DNA of 64,000 bases from Clostridiales bacterium (GTDB taxonomy: Bacteria; Bacillota; Clostridia; Oscillospirales; Oscillospiraceae). Location: the NCBI GenBank assembly GCA_022787565.1, contig JALFVN010000056.1, forward strand, positions 1 through 64,000, in the 5' to 3' direction. The translations under genes were made by a program, and so were the position numbers. Below are positions 3,408-24,206 of this stretch, piece by piece. Position 1 is the stretch's first letter, and every line of letters begins with the position of its first letter. The notes beneath the pieces were generated by a model. That model worked only from the letters and a program-made list of their open reading frames with translations, was not told the DNA's origin and did no database searches.

Positions 3408-4334
3408 TCATTTTCCACGCTCGAGAAGCGCCTTTTCATAGCAGTCCAGCAGATAAAGGCCGTTTTTGTAGGTCATTTTCACCAGGTCCAGCTGCACATC
3501 ACCCCATGAATTAAAGGTGACTTTGCCGGTCTCATAATTCAGATTGCCTTCGTAACCGATCTCTACAAGTGTATTGATCACACCGGGCCAGTCCACCTCA
3601 CCCATATAGGGCAACAGATGCTCGTCGGTGTTGCCATAGTGGTTATCATTGATGTGCAGGGTTTTGACCCGTTTGCCCATGGCTCTCAGTGCGCGTACCT
3701 GATCAAACTGCATCTGGTTTGCGTGGCCGGTGTCCCAGCAGATCCCCACCATAGGATCGGCAAAGCTGTCTACATATTCAATAAGCTGGTCGTAGTGCTG
3801 GCAGTACCGGGAGGCAAACTTCCGGTCCAGGGATGGGAGCATATTCTCCACCGCAGTACCGGTGCCGTTTTTGATGCCCAGTTCCACAAATTTGTCCTGC
3901 CAGGCGTGGTTTGCCTCCAGGGTGGCCTTATTCTCGTAATTGAACTCCGGGTAGGACCGGGGATGCGCCACAGCCCACTTCACACCCAGCCTGCCGCAGG
4001 CGATATAGGCTCTGCGGGTGGACTCGTCAAAATATTCGGCATAGCCGGGCTGCTTGAATTCCGGACTGGCGTAAGGGGAGCAGCCGGGGACAAAGGGCAG
4101 GTGGCACTGGTAGAAAAATATGCCGAGTTTGGCGGCGGTTTCACCCAGTTGGTCGATCTTCTTCTCCCAGTCATCGCCCCGGAGAATGTACTCGGGACGG
4201 TTCTGGAAACAGAAGCTCAGGTCGATCTCCTCGTAGCCCACTTCGCGCAGAACGCGCAGGACTTCGTTTAAGTCTTTCAACACGGCGGAATTGCCGCTTT
4301 TCTGGTAAAGACCGGTCGTAGTGGAAAGTTTCAT
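3408..4334 (-). CDS. Sugar-phosphate isomerase/epimerase (xylose-isomerase-like TIM barrel), paralog A
   Basis: 308 aa of the AP-endonuclease-2/xylose-isomerase-like TIM-barrel family (PF01261), which isomerises or epimerises keto/aldo sugars using a divalent metal. Ligand candidates are all present: E163 (TAVENM), D201 and H204 (WDTGHAN), H227 and D230 (LHINDNH) and E268. It is the last gene of the ABC-importer operon, 15 bp after a paralog with the same fold and length. The two share the RYCQ-YDQLIE-VDSF, GICWD-GHANQ and DEHLLPYMG blocks. Having two diverged copies side by side suggests two successive or alternative substrates. The exact substrate cannot be read from sequence. Confidence 0.9.
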   Translation of the reverse strand: MKLSTTTGLYQKSGNSAVLKDLNEVLRVLREVGYEEIDLSFCFQNRPEYILRGDDWEKKIDQLGETAAKLGIFFYQCHLPFVPGCSPYASPEFKQPGYAEYFDESTRRAYIACGRLGVKWAVAHPRSYPEFNYENKATLEANHAWQDKFVELGIKNGTGTAVENMLPSLDRKFASRYCQHYDQLIEYVDSFADPMVGICWDTGHANQMQFDQVRALRAMGKRVKTLHINDNHYGNTDEHLLPYMGEVDWPGVINTLVEIGYEGNLNYETGKVTFNSWGDVQLDLVKMTYKNGLYLLDCYEKALLERGK

Positions 4335-4349
4335 TGCGGCTGACCTCCT

Positions 4350-5279
4350 TTATGCGTGCTTTTGGGCATATAAGCGCTGATAGAGCTCCAGGATGCGCCC
4401 GGCGTTGCTTCGGGCGGTCTTTACCCACTCAATCTGCAGCGCGGTGGGAGCGTTATCACAGAGTTTGCCCACTTCAAAGTTCAAAACGCCTTTGTAGTCG
4501 ATATCCACCAGCGCCGACATGACGCTTTCCCAATCCACAGTCCCCATATAGGGCAGCAGATGCTCGTCACGGCAGTTATAGTGATTGTCGTTCAGGTGCA
4601 GATTTTTCAACCTGCCGCCCATTGCACGAATGGCCCGGCCCTGATCGTGCCCGGCCTGGTTTGCGTGGCCGCTGTCCCAGCAGATGCCCACCATGGGATC
4701 GCCGAAGCTGTCCACCAACTCGATGAGCTGATCATAATTCTGACAATAGCGGCCGGGGAAAGGCCACTGAGGACTCTCCGGCCGCATATTTTCAAAGGCT
4801 GTGCCCACATTATGCTTGATGCCGAATTCAACAAAGGGCTCATAATAGGCGCGGTTGCGCTCCAGGGCCAGATCCGGGCTGCCCACGGCGTCAAGGTAGG
4901 TCAGGGGGTGGGTGGTGCCATAGGGGACGCCCAGCATTGCGCTGGCAACATATGCACGGCGCATACACTCTTCAAAATATTCGGGAAAGCCGGGCTTGCC
5001 CCAGTTGGGATCCAGATCCGTGCAGGCTTTCTTGATAAAGGGAAGATGGCTCTGGGCGAAAGTGACGCCCAGCTTTGCCGCGGTGTTGGCCAGGTCGTCA
5101 ATTTTTTGCTGCCAGTCATCGCCCCGGAGAATAAAATCGGGAAAGGTCTGCTCGGTGAAGCCGATGTCCAGCGTGTCATATCCGCAGTCGTGCAGGATGG
5201 TCACGACCTCGCTCATATCCCGGAGCCCCGGAAAATCCACGCTCCGCTTGACGATACCTGTTAAAATCGATACTTTCAT
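4350..5279 (-). CDS. Sugar-phosphate isomerase/epimerase (TIM barrel), paralog B
   Basis: 309 aa from the MKVSIL start at 5279, chosen because AAGAAGGG lies 6 nt upstream and it aligns with the paralog's MKLSTTTG start. An ATG at 5303 is possible but has no ribosome site. It has the same TIM-barrel family and metal ligands as its neighbour (E163, D202, H205, H228). It is a cytoplasmic enzyme in the minus-strand ABC operon, acting on an imported, probably phosphorylated, sugar. Confidence 0.9.
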   Translation of the reverse strand: MKVSILTGIVKRSVDFPGLRDMSEVVTILHDCGYDTLDIGFTEQTFPDFILRGDDWQQKIDDLANTAAKLGVTFAQSHLPFIKKACTDLDPNWGKPGFPEYFEECMRRAYVASAMLGVPYGTTHPLTYLDAVGSPDLALERNRAYYEPFVEFGIKHNVGTAFENMRPESPQWPFPGRYCQNYDQLIELVDSFGDPMVGICWDSGHANQAGHDQGRAIRAMGGRLKNLHLNDNHYNCRDEHLLPYMGTVDWESVMSALVDIDYKGVLNFEVGKLCDNAPTALQIEWVKTARSNAGRILELYQRLYAQKHA

Positions 5280-5332
5280 TTCTGCCCTTCTTTCGACAAT
5301 CATGCGGGAGGATAAAATCTGTCATCGTTTTC

Positions 5333-5974
5333 TCACGATGACAGGATGTTCTGATCCGCCAGAAAACGCCGCAGCGCCTCAGCCTGAAGCGCATACTCGG
5401 CTTCCTTGCCCGGTACCGCCTGCGCAACGCAGAGATACAGGTCTTCAAGCGGCTCCATATAATCACCGGAGAAGACCTCCAGCGTTGACAGCGGGACAAG
5501 GACAAAGTCGTCGGGATTATCGTTGTCCACGCCGATCTCACGCCAGGTGGCCGGAAGCTCATTTTCCCGCATCCAGTCCCATGCGTGATCATTAACGATA
5601 AAAAAGGAATATTCCTGGCCGGCCACCAGCACGGTTATCTCCGACTTGAGAGAGTAACTGAGCTGGTGGTAATCCTGCTCAAAATCCACATAGGTCAGCA
5701 GGATCCGGGTCTTTCCGTCTCCGTTGGTGTCCCAGTCCAGAGACTCCAGCCTGTCCCGCAGGGCATACTCACACTGGGTCGTATACTTGTCGGACATCCA
5801 CATGACCTGCAGGTCAGGCTTGGGCTTCAGGACGCCGTACAGTGTATACCCGATAAGGAAAGCGCCCAGCAGACCAAAGAGAAGGTGAAATTTGTAATAC
5901 ATCCAGAAATATTCCAGACGTTCGCCTTTGGGAAGATCCCGAAGGTGATACTTTTTGGTGCCTTTGATACTCAT
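5333..5974 (-). CDS. Membrane-anchored unknown protein of the ABC operon
   Basis: 213 aa with a basic, polar N-terminus, one membrane segment (about residues 29-49, FHLLFGLLGAFLIGYTL) and a soluble extracytoplasmic domain of ~160 residues. It contains DTNGDGKT, a possible calcium-loop-like stretch. The start shares one base with the stop of the upstream permease gene, so translation is coupled. Proteins of this shape recur in clostridial carbohydrate ABC operons without an assigned function. It may contribute to substrate delivery, but that is only inferred from context. Confidence 0.75.
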   Translation of the reverse strand: MSIKGTKKYHLRDLPKGERLEYFWMYYKFHLLFGLLGAFLIGYTLYGVLKPKPDLQVMWMSDKYTTQCEYALRDRLESLDWDTNGDGKTRILLTYVDFEQDYHQLSYSLKSEITVLVAGQEYSFFIVNDHAWDWMRENELPATWREIGVDNDNPDDFVLVPLSTLEVFSGDYMEPLEDLYLCVAQAVPGKEAEYALQAEALRRFLADQNILSS

Positions 5975-6837
5975 TACTTCATTGCGTTCTTGGAATAGCC
6001 CTTGAGCATGTACTTCTGATTGAAGGCAAAGATGAGGACAACGGGGATGATGGATATGACGACACCGGCCATAATGGAGTTATAAAAGCCCTCGGTGGAC
6101 ATTTCCTCCCACATATTCTTCATTTTTGCGATACCCACGGCCATGAGACGGGTGCTGTCACTCTTGGACAGGATCTTCGGCCAGAAGTAGTTGTTCCAGC
6201 CGTTGATGAAGGAAACCAGAGCAGTGGTGATGACGGAGGCCTTGCACATAGGAATGAGAACATGCCAGATGGTCCCCAGAATGCCCAGACCGTCCATTTT
6301 ACCGGCATCCAGATAGCTCTGGTCAACGGACTTGAAGTTGTTGCGCAGCAGAAACACCATATTTGCTGAAACGACGCCGGGCAGTACGATACCGGCCATG
6401 GTATCCACCCAGCCCAGCTTTGCGATCAGCACATAGATGGGAATGAACACCACCTGGGCAGGGATCATCATGGCGCTGAGCACCAGCAGGAAAAGCGCGT
6501 TTTTGCCGGGGAAATTTCCCCTTGCAAAGCCGTAGGCCGCCAGAATTCCGCTGGTGAGCTGAATGAACATCTGCCACAGGGTGACATAGAAGGTGTTGAA
6601 CGTGAGCCGGGGAAAATCCATATGTGTCCAGGCAAACACATAGCTCTGGAAATTGGGATTTTTCGGCCAGAAGGTGGGAATGGTGGTTATGATCTCGGCA
6701 TCGGTCTTCAGAGAGGTAATGATCATCCAGTACAGCGGAAAAAGCATCACCAGTGTGATGATAACTGCGCCTGCGGTCTGCAGATGGTGCCACAGCTGCT
6801 TTTTGAACGCCTCGGGGGAGCGGAGCCTTTTATTCAC
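5974..6837 (-). CDS. Carbohydrate ABC transporter permease (MalG type)
   Basis: 287 aa with about six membrane helices. It has the typical cytoplasmic EAA loop (DAGKMDGLGILGTIWHVLIP) by which CUT1-family permeases contact the ATPase. It pairs with the MalF-type permease 13 bp upstream to form the membrane channel of a sugar importer. No ATPase gene is present, as is common in Firmicutes that share one MsmK/UgpC-type ATPase among importers. Confidence 0.95.
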   Translation of the reverse strand: MNKRLRSPEAFKKQLWHHLQTAGAVIITLVMLFPLYWMIITSLKTDAEIITTIPTFWPKNPNFQSYVFAWTHMDFPRLTFNTFYVTLWQMFIQLTSGILAAYGFARGNFPGKNALFLLVLSAMMIPAQVVFIPIYVLIAKLGWVDTMAGIVLPGVVSANMVFLLRNNFKSVDQSYLDAGKMDGLGILGTIWHVLIPMCKASVITTALVSFINGWNNYFWPKILSKSDSTRLMAVGIAKMKNMWEEMSTEGFYNSIMAGVVISIIPVVLIFAFNQKYMLKGYSKNAMK

Positions 6838-6850: not shown

Positions 6851-7804
6851 TTAAGCGTCGTAATTGACCTTGCGGTCCTGCCACTTCATGGTAAGGGCGG
6901 TGATGATGACCATGAAGATAAAGAACAGAATGGACACCACGGACGCGCGGTCGATCCGGTAATCCTCAAAGGTCATCTTGTACAGCAGGTAGACCATCAC
7001 TTCCGTAGATCTGGCCGGACCGCCGGAAGTCATGATGTCCACCAGATTATAGACCTTCATGGAGCTGATGAACTGCGTAACCAGCAGAAATGCGGTGGTG
7101 GGGGACAGCAACGGCAGAGTAACGTCTCTGAACACCTGGAACTTATTTGCCCCGTCCAGCGCAGCGGCCTCATAGTAGTCCTTGCTGATGCCCTGCATGG
7201 CAGAGAGATAGATGAGCATATTATACCCGATGCCGCGCCAGGAGGCAACGATCACCAGCGAGAAGATCGCCATGCTGGAGGATGAAAGCCATGCCACCGG
7301 GTCAAGGCCGACCACCTTCAGGAGATAGTTGAATACGCCGTAGCTCTCATTGAACAGCCACACGAAAATGACCGCCACAGAGGACATGGCAATGTAGTGC
7401 GGCATAAAGACCACTGAACGCATGAAGCTGAAGCTCTTTGTCATCCGGTTGAAAAGCAGAGCCAGCAGCAGACCCACGACGATAATGATCGCCAGGTGCA
7501 ACACGGTGTAAATAAAGGTGACTTTAAAGGCGTTCCAGACATGATTTGTCTCCAGCGTGGAGAAAAACCAGGTCCAGTTCTTCAATCCTACGTATTTGTA
7601 GGTTTTCTTCAGCATGTTCCAGTCGGTAAAGCTGTATCTTACCAGCTCAACCAGAGGGTAGTGGTTGAGCAGAATGACCAGAAATACTGCGGGAAGAACG
7701 CAGAGAAATTCAAGAAAGTTTTCCTTTTTGTATTTCTTCCTGCGGACGGGGGATCCCGAAGCGGTCGCGGCGGAGGCCGCAGACTGTTTTTTTAATGCTT
7801 TCAC
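6851..7804 (-). CDS. Carbohydrate ABC transporter permease (MalF/UgpA type)
   Basis: 317 aa. A basic cytoplasmic N-terminus of ~30 residues precedes six predicted helices, and the EAA motif reads EAAALDGANKFQVFRDVTLP. It is the partner of the MalG-type permease. The gene is separated from the lipoprotein gene by a hairpin (7842-7873), which probably lowers its expression relative to the binding protein. Confidence 0.95.
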   Translation of the reverse strand: MKALKKQSAASAATASGSPVRRKKYKKENFLEFLCVLPAVFLVILLNHYPLVELVRYSFTDWNMLKKTYKYVGLKNWTWFFSTLETNHVWNAFKVTFIYTVLHLAIIIVVGLLLALLFNRMTKSFSFMRSVVFMPHYIAMSSVAVIFVWLFNESYGVFNYLLKVVGLDPVAWLSSSSMAIFSLVIVASWRGIGYNMLIYLSAMQGISKDYYEAAALDGANKFQVFRDVTLPLLSPTTAFLLVTQFISSMKVYNLVDIMTSGGPARSTEVMVYLLYKMTFEDYRIDRASVVSILFFIFMVIITALTMKWQDRKVNYDA

Positions 7805-7913: not shown

Positions 7914-9278
7914 TCAGCCGGCTGCAGCGTCAGCAAGCATACCGTCCACTTCAGCCTTCAGATTGGCCCACTGGGCGTCGAAGTCTGCCTCGGAGATGTT
8001 GCCCTTGACGTACTCGCCGAATACGCCGGCAACAGCCTCCATGCACTTCTGCATTGCGGTGGAGGGGTTCTTTGCCACGATCCTGTCGGCGTGCTCAAAG
8101 ACGCCTTCCGCGCCGGGATACTGCTCATACATTGCGCTCAGGTCGCAGGCAGGGCGAACGGCGAACATGCCGGTGTCCACTGCCCAGCGGGAGATATTCT
8201 CGGCGTTGGTCAGGAAGAGGAGGAACTGAACGGCGGCGTTCTTTTCAATCTGGTCGTTGTCTGCGTAAACAAGCAAGGTCGCGCCGGAAACGGTGGAAAT
8301 GGGGGCTTGGTCGGTGCCGGTAACGCCGATGGCGGTGCCGACTTCAAAGTCAACAACCTTCATGATGTTGGCAATGCCGGAGCTGGTGTCGGTGTAAGCT
8401 GCGATCTCGCCGATCTTGAAGGCGGCCTGCTGGTCTTCCTGCGCACCATTGACGGAGGTGCCCATGTAGAGAGCGTAGCCGTTTTCTACAAGCTCGCGGA
8501 CGTCTTTGACGAAGCTGATAACGCGCTCGTCATCAAGAGCGGAGACAGTGCCGTCACCCAGGGGGTCGATGCCGGTGACGTTGAGGAAGAAGGTGTTCAG
8601 ATAGTTGAAGTCATAAGCAAAGCCGAAAGCAGGCTTGCCGGTAGCCTCGGTGACGTCCTTGCACCAGACCTTGAACTCCTCCCAGGTCTCGGGGAAGGGC
8701 AGATTCAACTCGTCAAGCAGGGTCTTGTTGTAGATGCAGCAGCCGGCGGAGATGCCGAAGGGCAGGCCGTAAAGCTGGCCGTCAGAGTAGGTCATGGCGT
8801 CCATCATGCCTTCGTAGTACTCGCTGCGGTCCAGGCCGTAGGCTTCCAGATAGGGATCCAGCGGTTCAATGATCTCGCTGGCCGCGAAGGGCTGGAGTCG
8901 GGGCGTGTTCATGGTGGAGAGAGTGGGGAGCCCTTCCCCTCCGGCTGCCAGAGCGCCGGCAACCTGCTCGGCAATTACAGGGTAGCCGCCGATGAGAACC
9001 AGGTCGACAGTGATCAGGGGATTTTCCTCGTGGAACTTATCGCACATTTCCTGCAGGAAAGCGGCACGCTTCTCGTTGGAGTAGTTGTGCCAGAAGGTGA
9101 TGGTTACGGGCTCGTTTACTTCGTACATGGAGTAATCGGGCTCGGCGGATTCGGCGGGTGAAGCTGCTCCTGCATCAGCAGGGGCTTCAGAGGCGGCGGG
9201 GGTCTCGGTTGTACTGCCGCAGGCGGTTATGCTGAGAAGCATAATGATCACAAGCAGCGCGGATAGAAATTTCTTCAT
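7914..9278 (-). CDS. Sugar-binding lipoprotein of the ABC importer (family 1 SBP)
   Basis: 454 aa with a lipoprotein signal (MKKFLSALLVIIMLLSITAC, lipid-modified C20), a low-complexity Ala/Glu/Pro linker and a family-1 extracellular solute-binding domain (VTITFWHNYSNEKRAAF...). It captures a carbohydrate outside the membrane and delivers it to the two permeases downstream. A GGAGGAC ribosome site overlaps the end of the YesL-like gene. The sulfatases around it suggest a sulfated sugar, but the binding pocket cannot be judged from sequence. Confidence 0.95.
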   Translation of the reverse strand: MKKFLSALLVIIMLLSITACGSTTETPAASEAPADAGAASPAESAEPDYSMYEVNEPVTITFWHNYSNEKRAAFLQEMCDKFHEENPLITVDLVLIGGYPVIAEQVAGALAAGGEGLPTLSTMNTPRLQPFAASEIIEPLDPYLEAYGLDRSEYYEGMMDAMTYSDGQLYGLPFGISAGCCIYNKTLLDELNLPFPETWEEFKVWCKDVTEATGKPAFGFAYDFNYLNTFFLNVTGIDPLGDGTVSALDDERVISFVKDVRELVENGYALYMGTSVNGAQEDQQAAFKIGEIAAYTDTSSGIANIMKVVDFEVGTAIGVTGTDQAPISTVSGATLLVYADNDQIEKNAAVQFLLFLTNAENISRWAVDTGMFAVRPACDLSAMYEQYPGAEGVFEHADRIVAKNPSTAMQKCMEAVAGVFGEYVKGNISEADFDAQWANLKAEVDGMLADAAAG

Positions 9279-9281: not shown

Positions 9282-9977
9282 TTAGTCCTCCGATTTAATT
9301 TTGTTGTCTTGGCCGGTTTTATTTTCAGCGCTCTTTGCGCCGGAAAGACAATAGCGGGCAGAGGGAAGCAGAAGCTCCCTCACCAGAGGGTCGCGGGAAA
9401 AGGTCCAGACATACACCCGCGCAAACTGATAGCATACGATAAACGGGAACAGAATGGCAAGGCCGGGATACAAAAAGGCAAGAAACGCACCCAGCAGGGC
9501 CAGCACCAGCATGGAAAGCGAATGGGGAAGGAACGTGAGCGTCAGGTGAACAGCCATCTTCCAGCCTTTCAGCAGGCCGCAGGCCGTGTGGGAGATAAGC
9601 GGCCATGTATAAAAGGAGGCCATAAGGTACAACAGGCCCAGCATGGCAAACACCGGCAGGAGAAAGGCGCCCAGCTTCGTTTTCATCTGCCAGCACAGCC
9701 ACAGATCGGCTGCCAGCAGGAGCAGGATCGCCACATGACTGAGCCACATGAGCGTAGCGCGCGGAAAATTCTTTCTGAAGGCGCAGAAGAAGTCCCGCAT
9801 CACCGAGCCTTCACAATTCCGGTGGATCTTCATGGAGACCGTCACAAAGGCAGTACTGGCCGCGCCGAAGGTGACAACAGGGATCGAACACAGCATCCAG
9901 AGCAGACTCAGAAGAAATACGTCCGCCATTTTATTCATGAACTGCCAAAAGGGGGTATTTACATTAAAAAGAGACAT
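9282..9977 (-). CDS. YesL-like (DUF624) membrane protein
   Basis: 231 aa with about five membrane helices. The N-terminus (NVNTPFWQFMNKMADVFLLSLLW, then PVVTFGAASTAF) is characteristic of the YesL/DUF624 family, which is nearly always linked to CUT1 sugar importers in Firmicutes. It is the first gene of the minus-strand importer operon. The function is unproven; a transporter-assembly role is commonly suggested. The ribosome site before the ATG at 9977 is weak. Confidence 0.85.
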   Translation of the reverse strand: MSLFNVNTPFWQFMNKMADVFLLSLLWMLCSIPVVTFGAASTAFVTVSMKIHRNCEGSVMRDFFCAFRKNFPRATLMWLSHVAILLLLAADLWLCWQMKTKLGAFLLPVFAMLGLLYLMASFYTWPLISHTACGLLKGWKMAVHLTLTFLPHSLSMLVLALLGAFLAFLYPGLAILFPFIVCYQFARVYVWTFSRDPLVRELLLPSARYCLSGAKSAENKTGQDNKIKSED

Positions 9978-10058: not shown

Positions 10059-10163
10059 ATATGATAAATGATAATTAAAAACTATTCAATGCATATTTTT
10101 CACATAATTTTATCGGTACTTTTTTGCAAAATAGCCAATAATACTTTTGAACTGCGGTTTGGT

Positions 10164-10192
10164 TTGACAAATAATTGCTTACGATATAAAAT
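10164..10192 (+). promoter_or_regulatory. Promoter of sulfatase 1 and MATE operon
   Basis: TTGACA (10164-10169), a 17-nt spacer and TAAAAT (10187-10192). It is followed by a ~110-nt leader to the sulfatase start at 10307. Confidence 0.65.
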
Positions 10193-10306: not shown

Positions 10307-11839
10307 ATGAACGAAAGACCGAATATCCTGTTTATTCTGACAGACGATCAGGGCGCCTGGGCCATGGGCTGCTCCGGAAACAGCGAACTGAAAACCCCAA
10401 ATCTTGACAGAATAGCCGTGTCCGGCGTGCGCATGGAAAACTTTTTCTGCGTTTCGCCGGTATGTTCGCCTGCCCGCGCCTCCATCTATACAGGAGAGAT
10501 CCCCTCGCGGCACGGCGTCCATGACTGGCTGGCCAAGGGACACGTCTCTGAATTTCAGCTGGACGATGAGCTCCGGGAGATGATAAACCGGGATGAGCCT
10601 CCCTATGAATATCTCTGGCCCAAAACCCAGCTCAGGGGCGACACCGCCATACAGTATCTCTCCGGGCATAAGACCTTCACGGAGGTCCTTGCCGGCAGCG
10701 GTTACGACTGCGGGCTTTCAGGCAAATGGCACCTGGGTGACAGCGCCACGCCCCAGGCGGGTTTTCGCTTCTGGCGCACAGAGGCCATGGGCGGAGACAA
10801 TTACTATTACCCGGTGGCACTGGAAAACGGGAAAATGACCATGAAGCGCGGCGTCTATGTGACAGACTATATCACCGACAACGCACTGGATTTTCTCCGC
10901 CGGGACCGTGACAGGGAAAGGCCTTTCTTCCTTGCGGTACACTACACCGCACCGCACTCCCCCTGGTCCGCGCCCTGCCACCCGGAAAAGTATATTAATA
11001 TGTACGAGAATTGCCCCTTTGACTCCATACCCGCACTTCCGCCCCATCCCTGGTGCCCGGAAGCAGGACAGACCCGCGCCCAGTGGGACAGCAAGCCCCA
11101 TCCCGGCGTGCGATTCATCCACGCCCGGTATGCCCCCATTGAGGAGGAGTGGCAGCAGTACCGGCGTGAGAGCCTGCGCGGGTATTTTGCCGCGGTCACC
11201 GCAATGGACGCTGCCGTGGGCCGCCTGCTGGACGAGCTGGAAGCACAGGGCCTTTCGGAAAACACGCTGGTGGTGTTCACCTCCGACAACGGCAGCAACA
11301 TGGGCCATCACGGGATCTTCGGCAAGGGCAACGGCACTTATCCCCAGAACATGTACGACACTTCGGTAAAGATACCCGGCCTCTTCTCCTTCCCGGGCAG
11401 GATCCCCGGGGGAAGGGTATGCAGCCAGATGGCGAGCCACTACGATCTTTACGACACCATCCTGGACCTTGCCGGTGTTCCCCACAAGGCAGATCCCGAC
11501 CGTCCCGGCCGCAGCTTTGCGGACGTGCTTACCGGCAGAGAAGAGCGGTTTCGTGACGAGGTGGTGGTCTATGACGAGTACGGCCCGGTGCGGATGATCC
11601 GCACAAAGGAATGGAAATATGTCCGACGCTTCCCGGATGGTCCCGATGAGCTTTACGATCTGGTAAACGACCCGGAGGAATACGTCAATCGGATCGACGA
11701 ACCGGCACAGAGGGAGCGGATACGGGAAATGGACAGCCGCCTTACGGAATGGTTCCGGCGCTATGCCGACCCGGCGCTGGACGGCTCCCACGAACAGGTA
11801 CGGGGCAAGGGACAGCTGGACAGTCACCATTTCCTGTGA
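10307..11839 (+). CDS. Cytoplasmic S1-family sulfatase 1 (Cys type)
   Basis: 510 aa. The chain begins directly with the first strand and metal site (NERPNILFILTDDQ, D13/D14) and has no signal peptide, so it should act in the cytoplasm. C53 lies in the C-S-P-A-R motif, where Cys is converted to formylglycine by the sulfatase-maturing enzyme at 13360-14499. Further family signatures are KWHLG, TAPHSPW and TSDNGSNMG. It hydrolyses an organic sulfate ester, presumably on an imported sugar. The specificity subfamily cannot be assigned. It is followed 36 bp later by a MATE exporter in the same operon. Confidence 0.95.
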   Translation: MNERPNILFILTDDQGAWAMGCSGNSELKTPNLDRIAVSGVRMENFFCVSPVCSPARASIYTGEIPSRHGVHDWLAKGHVSEFQLDDELREMINRDEPPYEYLWPKTQLRGDTAIQYLSGHKTFTEVLAGSGYDCGLSGKWHLGDSATPQAGFRFWRTEAMGGDNYYYPVALENGKMTMKRGVYVTDYITDNALDFLRRDRDRERPFFLAVHYTAPHSPWSAPCHPEKYINMYENCPFDSIPALPPHPWCPEAGQTRAQWDSKPHPGVRFIHARYAPIEEEWQQYRRESLRGYFAAVTAMDAAVGRLLDELEAQGLSENTLVVFTSDNGSNMGHHGIFGKGNGTYPQNMYDTSVKIPGLFSFPGRIPGGRVCSQMASHYDLYDTILDLAGVPHKADPDRPGRSFADVLTGREERFRDEVVVYDEYGPVRMIRTKEWKYVRRFPDGPDELYDLVNDPEEYVNRIDEPAQRERIREMDSRLTEWFRRYADPALDGSHEQVRGKGQLDSHHFL

Positions 11840-17086: not shown

Positions 17087-17191
17087 TTCCTCCTCCTGAA
17101 AGACAGCGGGTCTTGTGCGGCCTGGTGTTGTGATACCTGGTCCCTGTCTTTATCCATCCACCCGGTTTCTGCCGGAATGGGCTTAAGATGG

Positions 17192-17220
17192 TTGACTTTT
17201 GAAGGTTTTAACCCTATAAT
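17192..17220 (+). promoter_or_regulatory. Promoter of the DeoR-family regulator
   Basis: TTGACT (17192-17197), a 17-nt spacer and TATAAT (17215-17220), giving a leader of about 30 nt. Confidence 0.8.
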
Positions 17221-17257
17221 TGTTAGCATATTGAAATATGTGATGCAGGTGAAAGCA

Positions 17258-18010
17258 ATGGGAAAAAATATTGACAGCAGGCGCGATATTATCCTCTCCA
17301 TGGTGAACGAATACGGAAGTCTTGATTTTCAGCAGCTCCGCGACGCGTTCCCCAACGTGTCCGATGTTACGCTCCGAAAGGATCTGCAGTATCTCAACGA
17401 TACTCAGCAGGCGATCCGTACCCATGGCGGCATCAAATCGATCCCTTCGTTTCTCAACTACTACTACCGCTCAAACATCAATTCCGAACTGAAAAAGTCC
17501 ATTGCCTCCAAGGCGGTGAATCTCATCAGACCAGGAGATTATATTTTCATCTCCGCGGGCACGACCTGCGCCCAGCTTGCAAGCTGTCTGCCCAGCTTCC
17601 CGCTGTGCGTCTGTACAGACGGGATCTATACCGTCAACAGTATTTCTGCCCAACCCCATATCTCCGTAGAGCTTCTGGGCGGCGATGTGGATCTGAACAT
17701 CATGCGCACCGAGGGAATCAACACGATCAACCGCCTTGATTCCCTGCATTTTTCCACCGCGTTTCTCGGCGCCATCTATGTGAACGACGACTTCGGCTTC
17801 GCCCACAACAGCGCAATGACCATGGCCACGCTGAAAAAAGTGATCGAACATTCGGACAGGACTGTGGTCATGGTAGACTCCACAAAATTCAACTCCACCT
17901 TCTGCTCACACTGCATCCCCTTTTCCATGGTCGATATCGTCGTGTCTGACGATGATCTGCCCGCGGAGATGGCAGAGAAGCTCAGAAGCAAAGGGATCGA
18001 GGTCATCTGA
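17258..18010 (+). CDS. DeoR-family transcriptional regulator
   Basis: 250 aa from the ATG at 17258 (MGKNIDSRRDIILSMVNEYG), with AGGTGA upstream. It has an N-terminal DeoR helix-turn-helix (LDFQQLRDAFPNVSDVTLRKDL, about residues 20-41) and a C-terminal DeoR sensor domain (ISAGTTCAQLA, LLGGDVD, FLGAIYV, VMVDSTKFN) that binds phosphorylated sugars in this family. It sits in the middle of the sulfatase locus, divergent from sugar kinase 1, so it is the likely local repressor. The same frame is open upstream to 16322, but that stretch is antisense to the kinase gene. Confidence 0.93.
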   Translation: MGKNIDSRRDIILSMVNEYGSLDFQQLRDAFPNVSDVTLRKDLQYLNDTQQAIRTHGGIKSIPSFLNYYYRSNINSELKKSIASKAVNLIRPGDYIFISAGTTCAQLASCLPSFPLCVCTDGIYTVNSISAQPHISVELLGGDVDLNIMRTEGINTINRLDSLHFSTAFLGAIYVNDDFGFAHNSAMTMATLKKVIEHSDRTVVMVDSTKFNSTFCSHCIPFSMVDIVVSDDDLPAEMAEKLRSKGIEVI

Positions 18011-18085: not shown

Positions 18086-19450
18086 TCATACCCGGCCCTG
18101 TTCCGCCAACTGCGCGACAATGCGGTCGGAAATGCGGTCCAGCACGCCCAGATCCCAGGCGAGCTGAAACACGGTGTAGCGCGCCCGTGTCTCCTTGCAG
18201 TACAGCAGAGCGTCCTTCAGCACCTCGGGCGTGACGCCCAGATCCACCGGGTCGGCCGGGCAGCCCAGATCCTTGAGAAGCTCATGGAGTTTCCGGGAAG
18301 AATAGACGCCTGCAAGCATCTGCTGAATCTCATCCCAATGGGCCTGCATCGTATCGATGCGGCGGAGGCGGGCGGAAGTTTCGTTTTTGCCGGAGGCTTC
18401 TTCCAGCTCGATAATGGCCTCGGCGGCGCTGCCGTAGGCGCGGCGGATCTCGCTCCTCCACGTCTCCGGATCATAGGCCCTTGCGGCGGACCGGGCAGCT
18501 TCAAAGTCAATTTGTTCACCGGCCAGTGCTTCCGCTACAGAAAGCGCGATGACAGTACCCACGGCAACCTGCTCGCCGTGCATGGCGTAGGGCTTGCCCC
18601 GCTGATCTCCGACAACTTCCAGATAGTGAGAGAAGTGGTGCTCCGCACCGGAGATAGGACGGGAGCTGCCGTAAAGACTGATGGTGGCCCCGGCAAGCAG
18701 AAGAGCGTTGAGGACGTCACCGATGGTCTCCGGATCCCGTTTTTTCAGGGATCCGGTTTTGCTCAGAATGTCATGCACATAGTCGCTGATCAGCTTGTCT
18801 ATGCTGGCACAGTAGTGGTCGCCGTTGATCAGCGCAGCCAGATGCCAGTCGCTGAGGGCATTGAGCTTGCCGATCAGGTCTGCAAATCCGGCAAGGGTCA
18901 TGCGGAAGGGGGCGCCGGAGAGAATGTCCGTGTCGCCGATGATGACCTCTGTGCTGTGAGCGGGCATGGTGGCCTTGAGATTGTTCACGTTCATAATGCC
19001 AACCGAGGCGGAAAAACCGTCCATCGGGGCCGCTGTGGGGATGGTAAAGCAGGGGAGGCCCAGCTTGAAGCTGGCATAGCGGAGCATGTCGGTGATGGAG
19101 CCGGTGCCGCAGCCGATCATCAGGTCGCAGTTGTCGGGCTTGTTGATCACGATCTCGCCCAGTGTGGCCTCATCAAAGCCCAGATGCTTTATGATCAGCA
19201 CATGGCAGCGCAGACCTGCGGCTTTGAGCAGCTCCTCACACTTGCGGCCGGCCAGCTCATAGGTAATCTTGTCACAGAGAATGTAGGGATAGCAATAGCC
19301 ATATTCCTTTACATAGCCGGGCAGATCGTTGATGGCGCCGCTTCTGATGTCCACGGCCTTGATGGGGGCGTAGTGGGTGCGGCCGCAGTCACATTCAAGC
19401 GGAACGTTCAGGTATTTTTCAACGCTTTGTGTGGTCTCATACATCTTCAT
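18086..19450 (-). CDS. AraM/EgsA-type glycerol-1-phosphate dehydrogenase family protein
   Basis: 454 aa of the iron-containing-alcohol-dehydrogenase/dehydroquinate-synthase-like superfamily, closest in pattern to AraM/EgsA. The NAD-binding loop is MIGCGTGSITDM with TIPTAAPMDGFSAS. Metal ligands are in GFADLIGK (Asp), GAEHHFSHYLE (His) and YAMHGEQV (His). Known bacterial members reduce dihydroxyacetone phosphate to sn-glycerol-1-phosphate. In this locus, next to a SIS isomerase, a kinase and sulfatases, it may instead act on a sugar or polyol phosphate. The CDCGRTH stretch near residue 20 is typical of AraM. It lies 16 bp downstream of the SIS gene. Confidence 0.88.
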   Translation of the reverse strand: MKMYETTQSVEKYLNVPLECDCGRTHYAPIKAVDIRSGAINDLPGYVKEYGYCYPYILCDKITYELAGRKCEELLKAAGLRCHVLIIKHLGFDEATLGEIVINKPDNCDLMIGCGTGSITDMLRYASFKLGLPCFTIPTAAPMDGFSASVGIMNVNNLKATMPAHSTEVIIGDTDILSGAPFRMTLAGFADLIGKLNALSDWHLAALINGDHYCASIDKLISDYVHDILSKTGSLKKRDPETIGDVLNALLLAGATISLYGSSRPISGAEHHFSHYLEVVGDQRGKPYAMHGEQVAVGTVIALSVAEALAGEQIDFEAARSAARAYDPETWRSEIRRAYGSAAEAIIELEEASGKNETSARLRRIDTMQAHWDEIQQMLAGVYSSRKLHELLKDLGCPADPVDLGVTPEVLKDALLYCKETRARYTVFQLAWDLGVLDRISDRIVAQLAEQGRV

Positions 19451-19466: not shown

Positions 19467-20075
19467 TTATTTCCTGTCGTTCAGCAGCCTTTCGCCCACC
19501 GCGCCGGCGGGGTGAATGACCGCAAACTGCTCCCGTGTATAGCCGGTCATCTGCATGAGAGCGATGCAGATGGAGTCAAACATGGATATGACCGCCAGGG
19601 TGCTGGCGGTGGCCAGCATGTTGAAGCGGCAGGGCTCCTGCTCCACCCTGACCCGGAGATAGATATCCGCGTTTTGGGCGATGACTGAAGCGGGGTTTTC
19701 CGAAACCCCGATCAGCAGCGCCTTTTTTGCCCTGCAGGCCGGAATGAGCCTGACCAACTCCTCAGTGCCGCCGCCCTTGCTGATGAGGATCAGAATGTCC
19801 TCCTCCTGCAATACGCCCAGTCCGCCGTGTACGGCGTCGGAAGGGGTGAGAAACAGGGCGGGGATCTCTATACAGTTGAGGGAATGGGCGATCTTCTTTG
19901 CCGCCATGGCAGAGGTGCCGCAGCCGGATAGAATGACTTTGCCCCGGCAGTTCATCAGCGCCCTGGCCGTATCCAGAACCTGCTGCCCGTCAAGCTCCTC
20001 CGAGAGCCTGCGGACGGACTCCGCTTCCATCGCAATGCTGCGCTTTACTTCGGACAGAATCTCGCTGTCAGTCAT
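19467..20075 (-). CDS. SIS-domain sugar-phosphate isomerase (KpsF/GutQ-like, no CBS domains)
   Basis: 202 aa from the ATG at 20075 (MTDSEILSEV), preceded by GGAGAG at 7 nt; an ATG at 20090 lacks a ribosome site. It is a single SIS domain: GKVILSGCGTSAMAAKKIA (sugar-phosphate loop), LTPSDAVHGGLG, LILISKGGGTEELV and a terminal HPAGAVGERLL. These features match arabinose-5-phosphate isomerases and related hexulose-phosphate isomerases, but the two CBS domains of KpsF/KdsD are missing. It probably interconverts an aldose and a ketose phosphate in the pathway served by the neighbouring kinase and dehydrogenase. Confidence 0.88.
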   Translation of the reverse strand: MTDSEILSEVKRSIAMEAESVRRLSEELDGQQVLDTARALMNCRGKVILSGCGTSAMAAKKIAHSLNCIEIPALFLTPSDAVHGGLGVLQEEDILILISKGGGTEELVRLIPACRAKKALLIGVSENPASVIAQNADIYLRVRVEQEPCRFNMLATASTLAVISMFDSICIALMQMTGYTREQFAVIHPAGAVGERLLNDRK

Positions 20076-20131
20076 TACTGTTCTCTCCATACATTATAGT
20101 TTTGTTTTGTTTTGTTCTTCTGGACGGCCTT

Positions 20132-21067
20132 TTATTTTCTCAGACTGCGCAGAAACACCGTTCTGAAATCCTCCGGCAATTCAATGCCGCACAGGTGCAT
20201 GGCCTCTACTGCGGCGCCGAACACCGGGGGCGCCTCCGCCGGAATGATGTTGGCCTTCGGCGGACATTTGGCGCGGATCAGCTCCACATACTCCGGAAAG
20301 TTTGCGGCAATGCCGCCGCCCATCACCACGCTGAAAGGCGCGTCGAAAAAACCGCCGGCGACCCAGATCAGCTCCGCAAGGAACTCCGCGCCCTGGTCCA
20401 GAATCCGCTGGCACACCCGGTCGCCCATGCGCCGCCCTTCAAATACGAGATGGGCCAGCGAGGCAAACTTTGCTCTTCCCCCGGCGTACAGCGGCGGTAT
20501 GCAGTCGGGCATGGCCAGTCCCGTCTCCCGCTGCAACAGCCCGGACAGAAGGGTCTCCTCCCCCCGCCCGTCAAAGGCCCGGCATACGGCGCGGACAATT
20601 TCCCGGCCCAGCCAGTACCCGCTGCCCTGAGAGTCAGCCAGATAGCCCCAGCCGCCGGTGTGGGTAAACACATCCCCCTCCTGACGGCGGATCCAGGTCC
20701 CGCAGCCGGTGCCCACGATGAGGCAGCAGCCGTCTTCCTTGTGGGTCAGCTCGCAGGAGATCATGTTGCGCCCGTCAGTCTCTATGCGGAAATGATCACA
20801 GCCCAGTTCGGCACACATGTCCCGACCGAAAAAGTCGCTGAAATAATATAATCCCGCTACGCCGGCATAGATGCCGCTTATGGGACCGGGAGACTGGGCG
20901 GCAATGCGGCCTATCCCCTCCAGAAGGAGGCTGCGCGACTGCTCAACCCCGATATCCAGCGGATCGCTGCCCGGCAGCAGCAGCTCGTACAGCACTTGTC
21001 CGTCCTGACGGAAGAGAACGAAGCGGGTCTTTGTCCCACCGCCGTCAATGGCAATCATATAATGCAT
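20132..21067 (-). CDS. BadF/BadG-type sugar kinase 2 (N-acetylglucosamine-kinase-like)
   Basis: 311 aa, paralogous to kinase 1. It has DGGGTKTRFVLF at the start, IVGTGCGTWIRR, GGWGYLADSQGSGYWLG and VVMGGGIAANFPEY. An AAAGGAGG ribosome site precedes the start. It is separated from the upstream sulfatase operon by a strong terminator (21119-21154), so it appears to head its own unit: kinase, SIS isomerase, dehydrogenase. Two kinases of one family in one locus imply two sugar substrates or two steps. Confidence 0.9.
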   Translation of the reverse strand: MHYMIAIDGGGTKTRFVLFRQDGQVLYELLLPGSDPLDIGVEQSRSLLLEGIGRIAAQSPGPISGIYAGVAGLYYFSDFFGRDMCAELGCDHFRIETDGRNMISCELTHKEDGCCLIVGTGCGTWIRRQEGDVFTHTGGWGYLADSQGSGYWLGREIVRAVCRAFDGRGEETLLSGLLQRETGLAMPDCIPPLYAGGRAKFASLAHLVFEGRRMGDRVCQRILDQGAEFLAELIWVAGGFFDAPFSVVMGGGIAANFPEYVELIRAKCPPKANIIPAEAPPVFGAAVEAMHLCGIELPEDFRTVFLRSLRK

Positions 21068-21154: not shown

Positions 21155-21240
21155 TTTGTTACGCAGAGATCAGATTTTTATTTCCTGCGCCTCTTTCCCG
21201 GCCTGTTTCCGAGAAGCGCAGCTCTTTTCGAAACGCCGGG

Positions 21241-22704
21241 TCAGGTCATGCGCCGGGGCCGTATGGCCACGCTGTCGCCGTAGTTTTCTCTGAATTCTTC
21301 GGATAGCGGCGGCTCGGTCATCTGCATGACGGCGGCGGTCAGGCAGCGGGTCTGCGCCAGCTCACGAAACAGCCGGAGCGTAAGCCGGGTCTCGGTCTCT
21401 TTATATTCCTCTGCCCCGGCAAGGTTCAGAAGCTCGTCCGGGTCCTTCTCAAGATCAAAGAGCTGATACACATCGCCTTTGGCATTGGTGACCAGCTTCC
21501 ACCGGCTGTCCATATACATCAGCTCCCCGGAAAGCTCAGAGAGGAGACAGTCGCGGAAGCTGTCGGATTCATTCTCAATCACACCGCGCAGAGAGCGGCC
21601 GAACTGAATGTAGTTCTGCTCGCCGCCGGCGTAGTCCACCAGCGTGGCGCCGATATCCAGAAGACTCACCAGCGCGGGGCAGAAATGCCCGGTACGCCCG
21701 GCAGTGTCCGGCGTGCGGACGATCAGGGGAACGTTCAGCGCACCGCGGTAGAAGTTGCGTTTCTTGACCATGCCGTGATCGCCGTTCAGCTCGCCGTGGT
21801 CGGAGCTGATGAGCACCACAGTGTTGTCCCACTCGCCCCGGCGTTTTACTGTTTCAATGATCTCCCCGATCTGCCGGTCTATCAGAGTCACTGCGCCGCA
21901 GTAATCCGCCCGCAGCGCCGCGGCCGTCTCTTCAGTGCAGCGGAGTCTTGGCTTTTTCAGATTTGCGTCCACCATGCCCCTGGGCCTGTCCGGATTCAGA
22001 TCCTCCGTCAATGGCAGGGGCCTGGGCATGGCCTCCGGCGCGTACAGGCTGGCATAGGGCTCCGGCGTGTCCCAGGGCTCGTGAGGGCCGCCGAAGCTTA
22101 CATGGCAGAACCAGGGACGCTCATCCCTGTAGTTTTCCAGATAGTTTCTGCCTGCCCTGCCCACATAGACATCGTAGTAATCCTCCAGCGGCAGGGGGGA
22201 GGGGCGGGCAAAGGGCTCCTTGCGGGTATCCATGTCAAGACAGTATGCCTCCCACAGCCCCTTCTCCTTCCACATTTCGGACATGTGGGTGCGGGTCTGG
22301 GTGCTGGAATGGGGGCCGCTGATCTCGTTTACCGTGTCAAAGCCGTAGCCCTGCACAATCGGTTCATAGGCGATCATATCGCCGTAATCCGAATGGAGAT
22401 GGAGTTTGCCGAAGACCGATGTGGCATAGCCCTGCGCCCGGATGAGCTTGGGCCACAGATCCGCATCCGGAGAGAGAATATAGGGGGCATTATCCCAGGC
22501 CCCGTTGCTGTGGGGGTATTTGCCGGTCATGAGACTGATCCGCGCAGGAACACACAGCGGTGCCACGGTCATGCAATTGGTAAAGCACACGCCCTCTGCC
22601 GCCAGAGCATCCAGATTTGGCGTGGCCGCCGGGCCGCCCATGCAACCCAGCACGTCAGCACGGAGCTGATCGCACAGGATAAAAAGTATGTTTGGCTTTT
22701 TCAC
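21241..22704 (-). CDS. Cytoplasmic S1-family sulfatase 3 (Cys type)
   Basis: 487 aa. It begins KKPNILFILCDQLRADVLG, with no signal peptide; the metal site uses D12 and Q13. C51 is the formylglycine residue in C-V-P-A-R. Other signatures are FGKLHLHSDYGD, CHVSFGGPHEPW and LISSDHGELNGDHG. The FILCDQLR opening and HSDYGD loop are seen in several sulfatases of unknown specificity. It follows sulfatase 4 by 14 bp in one operon. The different motif surroundings of the four enzymes suggest they remove sulfate from different positions or sugars. Confidence 0.94.
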   Translation of the reverse strand: MKKPNILFILCDQLRADVLGCMGGPAATPNLDALAAEGVCFTNCMTVAPLCVPARISLMTGKYPHSNGAWDNAPYILSPDADLWPKLIRAQGYATSVFGKLHLHSDYGDMIAYEPIVQGYGFDTVNEISGPHSSTQTRTHMSEMWKEKGLWEAYCLDMDTRKEPFARPSPLPLEDYYDVYVGRAGRNYLENYRDERPWFCHVSFGGPHEPWDTPEPYASLYAPEAMPRPLPLTEDLNPDRPRGMVDANLKKPRLRCTEETAAALRADYCGAVTLIDRQIGEIIETVKRRGEWDNTVVLISSDHGELNGDHGMVKKRNFYRGALNVPLIVRTPDTAGRTGHFCPALVSLLDIGATLVDYAGGEQNYIQFGRSLRGVIENESDSFRDCLLSELSGELMYMDSRWKLVTNAKGDVYQLFDLEKDPDELLNLAGAEEYKETETRLTLRLFRELAQTRCLTAAVMQMTEPPLSEEFRENYGDSVAIRPRRMT

Positions 22705-22718
22705 TTGTCTGCCCCTTT

Positions 22719-24206
22719 TCAGCGCTTGTTGGTCCCCCAGTCGTTTACCTGAACGGTCATATCGGCGCCCTTGGGCTGGGCCACGCCGTGAACGGCAGCC
22801 TCTTCATACTGCCTCCACTGCTGCCAGTATTGCCGCCCGAAGAGAATGCCCTCGTCCTCCCACTCGTCCCGCATGCGGAAGAGGTTTTCCCGCAGCCGTG
22901 CGGTCACATCCTCGTATCCTGCCATGCCAAAGAGATTCATGGTCTCCCATGGGTCGTTTTCAAGGTCGAAAAGCTGCGTCAGCTTCAGATCCTCGGTGCG
23001 GTATTCAATGAGTTTGTAGCGGCTGTCCATAATTCCGCGGATCCGCGCCTGAAAGGCCAGATACAGATATTCTCTGGTCACATGGCTGCTGTCTTCAAAC
23101 ATTTTCGCAAAGCTTATGCTCTCCACGCTCTCGGGGATCTCCAGACCACAGAGCTCGCAGAGCGTGGGATAAATGTCCATCAGATACACGCTGCCGCGGC
23201 AGATGTTATCCTCCGGGATCCCGGGGCCCGCCATGATCAGCGGCACTTTCACGCTGTGCTCATAAACGTTCTGCTTGCCCATCAGACCGTGCTGGCCGAT
23301 GGCAAGGCCGTTGTCTCCAGCCAGGACGATGATGGTGTCCTCCGTCATGCCCCTGGCGTCCAGAGCGTCAAGAATCTGCCCAATGCGCCAGTCGATATGG
23401 CTTATCATGGCGTAATAGTCTGCAATGTGCCGGCGGATATTCTCCGGACGGCGGGGGAAAGCCTCCGTGTTCTCATCCCTGCCCTTGGCGCACCAGCCAA
23501 AGTCAAACTGAGGCATGGGATAATAATTGGGGGGAAGGGAAATCCTGTCGGGATCATACATGTTCCTGAACTGGGGGGGCATGGTCCGGGGATCGTGGGG
23601 AGCCAGATAGGCCACGTACATGAAGAAGGGCTCCTCACTGTCATAGTTTTCAATGAATTTGACGGCAGACTGGGAGAACAGGTCAGTGGAGTGAACACCG
23701 GCGGTGATCTTCTCGGCTCTCACGGTCACGGGGGTCTCGTTGGCGGTAAAGTTTGGAGTGAACATGACCTCCTTGTCATAACAGCCGTTTTCCTTAAAAT
23801 CGTTCACCGGCACGTTCCAGTGATCCCACATGCCGCCGAAAAAAATGTTTTCGCCGCAGTCAAAGCTGCGCACAAAGCTGTCGATGCCGTTATGCCACTT
23901 GCCGGTCTCAAAGCAGTGGTAGCCGTTATGCAGAAAGCACTGTCCCATGGTGACCTGGTCCGCCGGGATGTTTTTGCCGCAGTCTTCAAGATGGAAAAGG
24001 GTCCGGCCCGAATTGATCATGGCTCTGCTGGGCATACAGACCGCGGAAGCGGTGCCGCCGGGAATATGGGCGTTGACAAAAGAAGTGCCTCTGCGGACGA
24101 TGCGATCCATATTGGGCGTATGGATTTCCTCGTTTCCCAGTGCGTGGATGGTGCCGCAACGCTGGTCGTCGGTTAACAGAAACAAAATATTCGGTCTTTT
24201 TTTCAT
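22719..24206 (-). CDS. Cytoplasmic S1-family sulfatase 4 (Cys type, C-M-P-S-R)
   Basis: 495 aa, first gene of the operon, with an AAGGGGATC ribosome site. It begins KKRPNILFLLTDDQRCG without a signal peptide. The formylglycine Cys is C57 in C-M-P-S-R, and a Pro/Gly-rich insert (HIPGGTASAV) precedes it, a variant seen in heparan- and choline-sulfatase-like groups. Further motifs are ETGKWHNGIDSF, VAYLAPHDPRTMP and VLAGDNGLAIGQHGLMGKQN, where the usual S/T-S-D of the last motif is replaced by A-G-D. It is preceded by the palindromic operator at 24254-24277. Confidence 0.94.
   Translation of the reverse strand: MKKRPNILFLLTDDQRCGTIHALGNEEIHTPNMDRIVRRGTSFVNAHIPGGTASAVCMPSRAMINSGRTLFHLEDCGKNIPADQVTMGQCFLHNGYHCFETGKWHNGIDSFVRSFDCGENIFFGGMWDHWNVPVNDFKENGCYDKEVMFTPNFTANETPVTVRAEKITAGVHSTDLFSQSAVKFIENYDSEEPFFMYVAYLAPHDPRTMPPQFRNMYDPDRISLPPNYYPMPQFDFGWCAKGRDENTEAFPRRPENIRRHIADYYAMISHIDWRIGQILDALDARGMTEDTIIVLAGDNGLAIGQHGLMGKQNVYEHSVKVPLIMAGPGIPEDNICRGSVYLMDIYPTLCELCGLEIPESVESISFAKMFEDSSHVTREYLYLAFQARIRGIMDSRYKLIEYRTEDLKLTQLFDLENDPWETMNLFGMAGYEDVTARLRENLFRMRDEWEDEGILFGRQYWQQWRQYEEAAVHGVAQPKGADMTVQVNDWGTNKR

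Follow-up and report, generated by a model that had tools for sequence, protein, structure and literature searches.

A predicted cytosolic sulfatase island in a Clostridiales bacterium and the AraM-type dehydrogenase clade linked to it

The stretch of DNA analyzed here (the window) is positions 1 to 64,000 of contig JALFVN010000056.1 from Clostridiales bacterium (assembly GCA_022787565.1; Oscillospiraceae), and our subject is an island within it, 18 genes over 21 kb (3408-24206), in which four sulfatases lie among genes for an importer, sugar kinases and an AraM-type dehydrogenase. Families were assigned with Pfam and NCBIfam, and the matches are of such strength that chance is not a concern for the family calls. 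Each member of the gene list in a preliminary description of this DNA (sulfatases, their maturase, importer, kinases, epimerases, SIS protein, dehydrogenase, DeoR regulator and exporter) was placed by these searches. The left part of the island, all on the minus strand, encodes the epimerase-like proteins EpiA and EpiB, a 213-aa protein, two permeases, a lipoprotein and a DUF624 protein. The middle carries the sulfatase Sulf1 and a MATE exporter on the plus strand, the maturase anSME, Sulf2 and the kinase BadF1 on the minus strand, and DeoR on the plus strand; the right part, again on the minus strand, carries AraM, the SIS protein, BadF2, Sulf3 and Sulf4. None of the 18 genes encodes an importer ATPase, a SusC/SusD protein or, by Pfam and NCBIfam, a sulfate-assimilation protein, and the earlier statement that there is no glycoside hydrolase or lyase holds for the same 18 genes and searches.

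Sulf1 (10307-11839, plus strand; PF00884 1e-48), Sulf2 (14601-16025, minus; 1e-46), Sulf3 (21241-22704, minus; 4e-44) and Sulf4 (22719-24206, minus; 3e-37) match PF00884 at 129-166 bits against a cut-off of 25. Their mutual identity is 26-31% over the longer BLAST alignments, and each carries the Cys-type formylglycine motif CxP[AS]R, as CSPAR (at residue 53), CVPAR, CVPAR and CMPSR, respectively. The anaerobic sulfatase-maturating radical SAM enzyme, anSME (13360-14499, minus), reaches 452 bits against the NF010321 cut-off of 441. With the CxPxR motif in all four and a maturase encoded nearby, these proteins are, on sequence grounds, formylglycine (S1) sulfatases with anaerobic maturation, and hydrolysis of sulfate esters is their predicted activity. 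The first catalytic strand begins about 3-8 residues after the likely start of each, and a crude hydropathy test found a signal-like N terminus on none of them, which bears out the earlier claim that they lack signal peptides; for Sulf2 a longer TTG-started frame (to 16100) is possible, still without a signal-like stretch. A Pfam search of the whole genome (2.63 Mb) finds six sulfatases, these four and two on a second contig, C19.

Carbohydrate- or choline-sulfatase chains are among the best solved matches of Sulf1, Sulf2 and Sulf4. Sulf1 lies near S1_11 structures, and its solved matches include 6ust, which we take to be a gut sulfatase acting on steroid sulfates. The chain nearest to Sulf2, 7oz8, is labelled choline-sulfatase and is presumably the S1_46 GlcNAc enzyme BT1918. 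The best solved relatives of Sulf3 are 4upi (1e-51) and 4upl (1e-48), which both bear the label sulfatase family protein and are, we assume, promiscuous arylsulfatase/phosphonate hydrolases; 4upk, labelled phosphonate monoester hydrolase, stands lower among its matches.

The importer is represented by a substrate-binding lipoprotein (7914-9278, minus; SBP_bac_8 3e-34, lipobox-like LLSITAC), whose relatives in PDB include sugar- and glycerol-phosphate-binding proteins, and by two PF00528 sugar permeases, one of MalG/UgpE type (5974-6837, minus; UgpE 112 bits, under the NCBIfam cut-off of 297) and one of MalF/UgpA type (6851-7804, minus; UgpA 134 bits, under 335). It is adjoined by a DUF624/MusI-like membrane protein (9282-9977, minus; PF04854 3e-14; NF052431 94 bits, cut-off 160). 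The 213-aa protein (5333-5974, minus), whose start overlaps a permease stop codon, has a single hydrophobic segment near its N terminus and matches nothing in Pfam or NCBIfam. The kinases BadF1, of NAGK/MurK type (16118-17086, minus; PF01869 2e-15), and BadF2 (20132-21067, minus; 6e-20) are 44% identical. A BadF profile run against PDB finds MurNAc/GlcNAc kinase first (6e-34) and hexokinase next (2e-29), and the two proteins score 70.5 and 83.2 bits on the GlcNAc kinase model NagK (NF046058), whose cut-off is 370.

EpiA (3408-4334, minus; PF01261 1e-21) is a xylose-isomerase-like TIM barrel of epimerase/isomerase kind, and EpiB (4350-5303, likely start 5279, minus; 4e-27) is its paralogue at 50% identity; a copy on C19 is 47% identical to EpiA. 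Glu, Asp and His residues, presumably metal-binding in the TIM-barrel fold, are invariant in all four aligned Epi proteins. The KpsF/GutQ-like SIS-domain protein (19467-20090, minus; PF01380), with 3fxa as its nearest solved chain (4e-71), retains Glu111, Glu152 and His193 of KdsD. Arabinose-5-phosphate isomerase (KpsF/GutQ) was rejected as its identity, since it scores 145.9 bits against the kpsF cut-off of 203.7 and has Thr at the position of Lys59, which we take to be catalytic in KdsD; we infer that it is an isomerase. The DeoR-family regulator (NCBIfam AgaR 126 bits, under the cut-off of 260) is read at 17258-18010 on the plus strand, where a mechanical list of open reading frames (ORFs) has a longer frame, 16322-18010. 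The exporter of the preliminary description is indeed encoded, as a MATE-family protein (11876-13264, plus; PF01554 1e-57), but its place in a pathway is doubtful and it may be a passenger, as none was seen beside sulfatases in the related loci annotated.

The AraM/EgsA-type dehydrogenase (18086-19450, minus; Fe-ADH_2 7e-23) ties the island most closely to other genomes. It has the Fe-ADH_2 domain and the putative ligand residues of the AraM/glycerol-1-phosphate dehydrogenase family, and its nearest named relatives are glycerol-1-phosphate dehydrogenases, but at 181.5 bits it lies far under the 413-bit NCBIfam equivalog cut-off for that enzyme. AraM-like genes are common, occurring in 100 of 295 genomes of the order (E <= 1e-30) and 103 of 391 genomes of the class (E <= 1e-70). 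We fetched stretches around 39 hits from the order search and 40 from the class search (fetched stretches are numbered L, genomes G) and built two quick trees of AraM proteins, one with 84 rows and a later one with 86, at a lower limit of 330 residues, the larger tree adding L164 (the whole version of the end-cut L101 AraM) and L166. In both trees the AraMs of the window, L082, L083, L118 and L039 form one clade with an SH-aLRT of 100. A sulfatase lies within 10 kb of each of the five, against 2 of the 81 others, and the sulfatase-neighbour label changes three times on the tree against a mean of 6.8 when shuffled (0 of 500 shuffles as low). In L039 (genome G035), found through AraM alone, the genes for sulfatase, TauE and AraM are consecutive.

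The clade is also set apart by a motif. On the 84 rows all five members have TAAPMDG where other AraMs have TAPSMDG: position 141 is Pro in the others and Ala in the clade, while position 142, Pro in the clade, is Ser in 99% of 79 other AraMs and Pro in none. Of the two rows outside this count, L166 has TAPSMDG and L164 neither form. The change sits two residues before the invariant Asp144, and D144, D191, H271 and H291, the last three of which we take to be metal ligands, are conserved. Because TAAPMDG replaces TAPSMDG while the ligands are unchanged, the sequences suggest that the clade uses another substrate or cofactor, and it may represent a new activity. No common sugar emerged from the neighbours of AraM genes across the 79 stretches, in which ten neighbour proteins were named by Pfam; those beside other AraMs include aldolase II, GDPD, HAD-type, UxaC and FAD oxidoreductase proteins. 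Other AraM clades adjoin GDPD phosphodiesterase-like and HAD-type genes (L062 11055-11792, L067 8783-9529, L069 10997-11716), possibly a glycerol-1-phosphate pathway, and in L066 (5708-7693) AraM is seemingly fused to a protein of the HAD-type neighbour group.

A survey of gene neighbourhoods, which the preliminary description had proposed, finds such sulfatases recurring with importers, BadF, DeoR and AraM in other gut bacteria. The second locus of the same genome, C19, has in a row EpiA (47%), a Sulf4-like sulfatase (30%), BadF1 (44%), a Sulf2-like sulfatase (49%), an MtlD-like gene and an AraM-like gene (29%); a TauE-like gene lies at a distance of about 4.5 kb. With Sulf2 as the anchor, a scan of genome contigs returned eight loci, two of them distant and six at 64-69% identity in five metagenome-assembled genomes (MAGs): RUG166, an MGBC genome of mouse-gut type to judge by its name, two genomes from roe deer gut and one with the label Hungatella. 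Sulf1 has relatives at 64% (L100) and 62% (L118), and Sulf4 at 68% (L082) and 71% (L100). The distribution is sporadic. At E <= 1e-100 Sulf2 is found in 7 of 391 class-sample genomes (the source genome among them, the remaining six at 37-42% identity) and, counting the centre genome each time, in 2 of 200 in the family of RUG166 (G826), 2 of 299 in that of the Hungatella-labelled MAG (G828) and 1 of 16 in the genus of the mouse MAG (G827). At E <= 1e-30 in its own genus the 3 of 31 are its own genome, G812 with a close Sulf2 and G824 with a distant sulfatase. The six class-sample relatives (L102-L107), from two other families of the class, have anSME in four, TauE in two and BadF in none on the fetched stretch.

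Taking Sulf2 at 45% identity or more, or Sulf1/Sulf4 at 60% or more, as the limit gives ten loci from eight genomes: the window, C19, L082/L115, L083, L084, L085, L086+L087, L099/L100 of G812, L114 and L118. BadF and DeoR are each found in seven of the ten, AraM and anSME in five each, Epi in three and SIS in two. An ABC importer is present in eight, of sugar type in four (the window included) and of SsuABC type in the other four, and a TauE-type exporter in five. The clearest case is L118, with DeoR, SsuA-C-C-B-B, Sulf1, AraM, BadF and TauE in a single run. L083 reads DeoR-Sulf2-SsuA-C-C-B-B-BadF-AraM, followed by anSME and TauE; L082/L115 holds both kinds of sulfatase; and L087 and L086, two contig ends of one MAG, give DeoR-BadF-SsuACCBB-Sulf2 (first part) and Sulf2 (last part)-TauE-anSME. 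The putative SsuA-family binding proteins match at 2e-18, with 3uif SsuA at 2e-4, and that of L118 scores 66 bits on TIGR01728 against a cut-off of 163.5.

Proteins of the TauE/SafE family export sulfur oxyanions or sulfonates. Outside the window, 9 of the 19 sulfatase-bearing loci that were fetched have a TauE gene (L099 and L100 counted separately), against 0 of 77 AraM loci that lack a sulfatase. The calls in L083, L086 and L105 were made by Pfam and the others, those in L118, C19 and L039 among them, by a small custom HMM; NCBIfam left the L118 and C19 copies unnamed. The position of TauE near sulfatases fits release of sulfate inside the cell. The importer varies from locus to locus but sulfatase, kinase and dehydrogenase persist, a pattern that suggests a single type of cargo.

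We propose that small sulfate esters, either of sugars or of sugar alcohols, are taken up intact and catabolized by the products of the island, and we consider this probable. The proposal is built on the gene families, the intact formylglycine motifs, the lack of export signals in our crude test, the recurrence of the genes and the linkage of the AraM clade to sulfatases; from these we infer the carbohydrate or polyol nature of the ester and the order of the steps. Hypothetically, the lipoprotein-dependent ABC importer, whose place is taken by an SsuABC-type importer in several relatives, would bring in a small sulfate ester, probably of monosaccharide size. The four sulfatases, matured in the cytosol by anSME, would remove sulfate from different positions or different compounds, and a BadF kinase would phosphorylate the freed hydroxy compound. 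The phosphate product would then enter central metabolism through the AraM-type dehydrogenase by sugar- or polyol-phosphate oxidoreduction, with the SIS protein and the TIM-barrel enzymes acting as isomerases for some substrates. A kinase followed by an AraM- or MtlD-type enzyme fits oxidation of a polyol phosphate no less well than the reduction named in the preliminary description. The released sulfate would be exported from the cell, and the DeoR repressor would probably sense a sugar phosphate. The preliminary description had likewise proposed uptake of small sulfated sugars, desulfation inside the cell and then phosphorylation, and gene content, recurrence and the presence of TauE in five of the ten loci speak for this course. 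We also entertain, short of thinking it probable, a fuller hypothesis: that this is a catabolic module not described before, sporadic in gut bacteria, which takes in small sulfate esters whole and breaks them down with cytosolic sulfatases, TauE, BadF and a new, sulfatase-dedicated AraM clade, and that TAAPMDG is the sign of a new substrate, which could be a sugar phosphate or polyol phosphate distinct from glycerol-1-phosphate.

Several observations weigh against the proposed catabolic role. BadF is missing from three of the ten loci and AraM from five, so the gene set is loose, and the type of importer varies between loci. On the stretches first fetched (4-20 kb, several of them short), the six Sulf2 relatives at 37-42% identity are accompanied by neither BadF nor AraM. 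There is no TauE in the window, the nearest known copy being on C19. As for the AraM link, the genomes of L082, L083 and L118 were reached via the Sulf2 scan, which leaves the window and L039 as the unbiased cases. Outside the clade, the AraMs of C19 and of L164 (G824, a stretch chosen for its sulfatase) also have a sulfatase within 10 kb, and that of L166, from G539, one of the six genomes with a 37-42% Sulf2 relative, is 10.1 kb from one; the AraM-sulfatase neighbourhood is thus not confined to the clade.

The identity of the ester is where the alternatives compete. One, a narrower form of the proposal, holds that the cargo is sulfated hexosamine or hexose monosaccharides (GlcNAc, GalNAc and Gal sulfates) that other bacteria release from host glycans, with a sulfatase, BadF as hexosamine kinase and NagA/NagB encoded elsewhere forming the route and AraM and SIS acting on side branches. 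The closeness of the BadF profile to MurNAc/GlcNAc kinases, the position of Sulf1 near S1_11 chains and the 7oz8 match of Sulf2, labelled choline-sulfatase, all agree with it. The genome has nagA (305 bits, cut-off 226) and a nagB-like gene (221 bits, cut-off 237), but on contigs other than those of the two sulfatase loci. In G812, of the same genus, nagA (279 bits; L100 14943-16070, G812:C1) is about 7 kb from the Sulf1/Sulf4 cluster, and in G830 (L165 10361-13049, G830:C122) about 0.8 kb separates nagA from an additional sulfatase fragment. What speaks against this alternative, besides the separate sulfatase-linked AraM clade that it leaves unexplained, is that Sulf1 lacks the S1_11 Asp/Arg pair. 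We take this pair to be positions 361 and 363 of 5g2v, located by counting, and in a pairwise HMMER alignment D361/R363 fall on Gly and Gln beside a six-residue insertion. In S1_11 GlcNAc-6-sulfatases the pair contacts O4, according to PMC10154612. A precedent is the intracellular sulfatase of Bifidobacterium breve UCC2003, which PMC7326374 reports to go with the use of GlcNAc-6-sulfate for growth and with cross-feeding on sulfated monosaccharides derived from mucin. We regard the hexosamine alternative as possible and lean mildly against it. For GlcNAc-6-sulfate itself the evidence is mixed; it was not accepted as the assigned substrate given the missing Sulf1 pair, and nagA near sulfatases keeps it alive as a candidate. 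Since the evidence points two ways, we describe the substrate as a small sulfated sugar or polyol.

Polyol sulfates are a second alternative, again a narrower form of the proposal, in which a sulfatase and BadF would yield a polyol phosphate that an AraM- or MtlD-type enzyme oxidizes to a ketose phosphate. It would account for L083 and L118, where kinase and AraM accompany sulfatase and importer without Epi or SIS, for the glycerol-1-phosphate dehydrogenases nearest to AraM and for the MtlD-like gene between sulfatase and AraM on C19, which reaches 346 bits on the mannitol-1-phosphate 5-dehydrogenase model (cut-off 368). However, the named relatives of BadF act on hexosamines or hexoses, the TIM barrels and the SIS protein fit aldose/ketose chemistry, and we know of no abundant sulfated polyol of the gut, and so we think this alternative unlikely.

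A third alternative makes the PF00884 proteins phosphodiesterases, phosphonate hydrolases or enzymes that deconjugate aryl and steroid sulfates; it draws on the ranking of 4upi and 4upl, then 4upk, for Sulf3 and on the 6ust match of Sulf1. Yet Sulf1, Sulf2 and Sulf4 match carbohydrate- or choline-sulfatase chains, the TauE exporters of relatives fit sulfate, and deconjugation would give the kinases and isomerases no role; we find it improbable. Least likely by our estimate, and very improbable, is scavenging of sulfur from organic sulfates in the manner of SsuABC/AtsRBC instead of carbon use: putative SsuA-family binding proteins do accompany sulfatases in relatives, but TauE/SafE-type exporters near sulfatases in five of ten loci suggest that sulfate is waste, the sugar kinases, AraM and DeoR would stand idle, and a sulfate-assimilation gene is missing among the 18.

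Candidate regulatory sites lie before the genes of the proposed catabolic island. The exact 11-mer GGCTATTTTGC has two copies in the 64 kb, at 10126-10136 (minus), just upstream of a promoter-like site for Sulf1 (TTGACA-17-TAAAAT, 10164-10192, plus; a consensus match only), and at 24357-24367 (plus), upstream of Sulf4. Both copies fall in promoter regions, one belonging to the Sulf1/importer divergon and the other to the Sulf4-led operon. The related AGCTATTTTAG (24289-24299, plus) spans the -10 element in the promoter-like sequence assigned to Sulf4 (24322-24293, minus), and a similar site at 24438 is, by eye, part of an apparent hairpin. With one mismatch GGCTATTTTGC has 9 matches in the window against 1.4 expected; six of these, including one within Sulf1, lie elsewhere in the window, so the motif is not specific. 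We therefore treat the GGCTATTTTGC and AGCTATTTTAG sites as candidate operators of one regulon. DeoR has a promoter-like site of its own (TTGACT-17-TATAAT, 17192-17220), and apart from one tRNA no Rfam family, and hence no riboswitch, matched the window at the gathering threshold.

On the left the island is preceded by a tRNA-like gene (2959-3031; Rfam 44.7 bits, not called by ARAGORN, its 5' acceptor strand unpaired by eye). A second copy (97%) of the gene's 30-nt 3' end lies 162 bp further on, at 3167-3196, just left of the island; the window holds no further exact 14-base match to this 3'-end stretch. Together the two may mark an old integration site. The left flank (1-3407) has a GC content of 0.456 against 0.564 in the island, with short ORFs of which one resembles an HNH-type endonuclease (by eye) and one has zinc-ribbon-like matches. 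Foreign composition was rejected, with the GC of the locus at 0.564 against 0.578 to its right, as was plasmid origin, the best plasmid matches listed for Sulf2 and AraM being under 40% identical. Adjoining the island on the right (24489-29564) is a 1691-aa protein with DUF5724, DUF4132 and DUF7737 domains.

Intracellular desulfation as a principle is not new, as it is known from B. breve. The glycosulfatase clusters of that organism resemble the island in having an intracellular sulfatase, which for the island we judge by N termini only. They differ, as far as a comparison by description goes, in that the passage on them in PMC7326374 mentions no BadF, AraM, SIS or SsuABC, while the island combines four sulfatases with such genes. 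Bacteroides mucin and glycosaminoglycan (GAG) polysaccharide utilization loci share S1 sulfatases acting on sulfated sugars; PMC10154612 and PMC6994673 place those enzymes on the cell surface or in the periplasm, together with import through SusC/D. The island sulfatases, by contrast, are predicted to be cytosolic and fed by an ABC importer, with no SusC/D, glycosidase or lyase among the 18 genes, and the earlier claim of a difference from Bacteroides-type loci stands. SsuABC/AtsRBC scavenging systems resemble the relatives, in which a sulfatase gene adjoins those for an SsuA-like protein, a pair of permeases and a pair of ATPases; the relatives add kinase, dehydrogenase, DeoR and TauE, and the importer of the window is of sugar type. 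The preliminary description also stated that the combination matches no known pathway. In its broad form this fails, given the intracellular GlcNAc-6-sulfate sulfatases on record in B. breve. It survives for the gene set: in the open-licence literature searched, we found no description of the sulfatase-BadF-AraM-TauE-importer set or of the AraM clade.

Sulfation shields host and dietary glycans, and in our judgement the fate of the small sulfated leftovers from surface degraders is little known beyond Bacteroides and B. breve. With the AraM clade as a marker and a recurrent gene set beside it, cytosolic use of sulfate esters becomes trackable in genomes and testable with a few enzymes. Such use would point to a source of free sulfate for the sulfide-producing bacteria of the gut.

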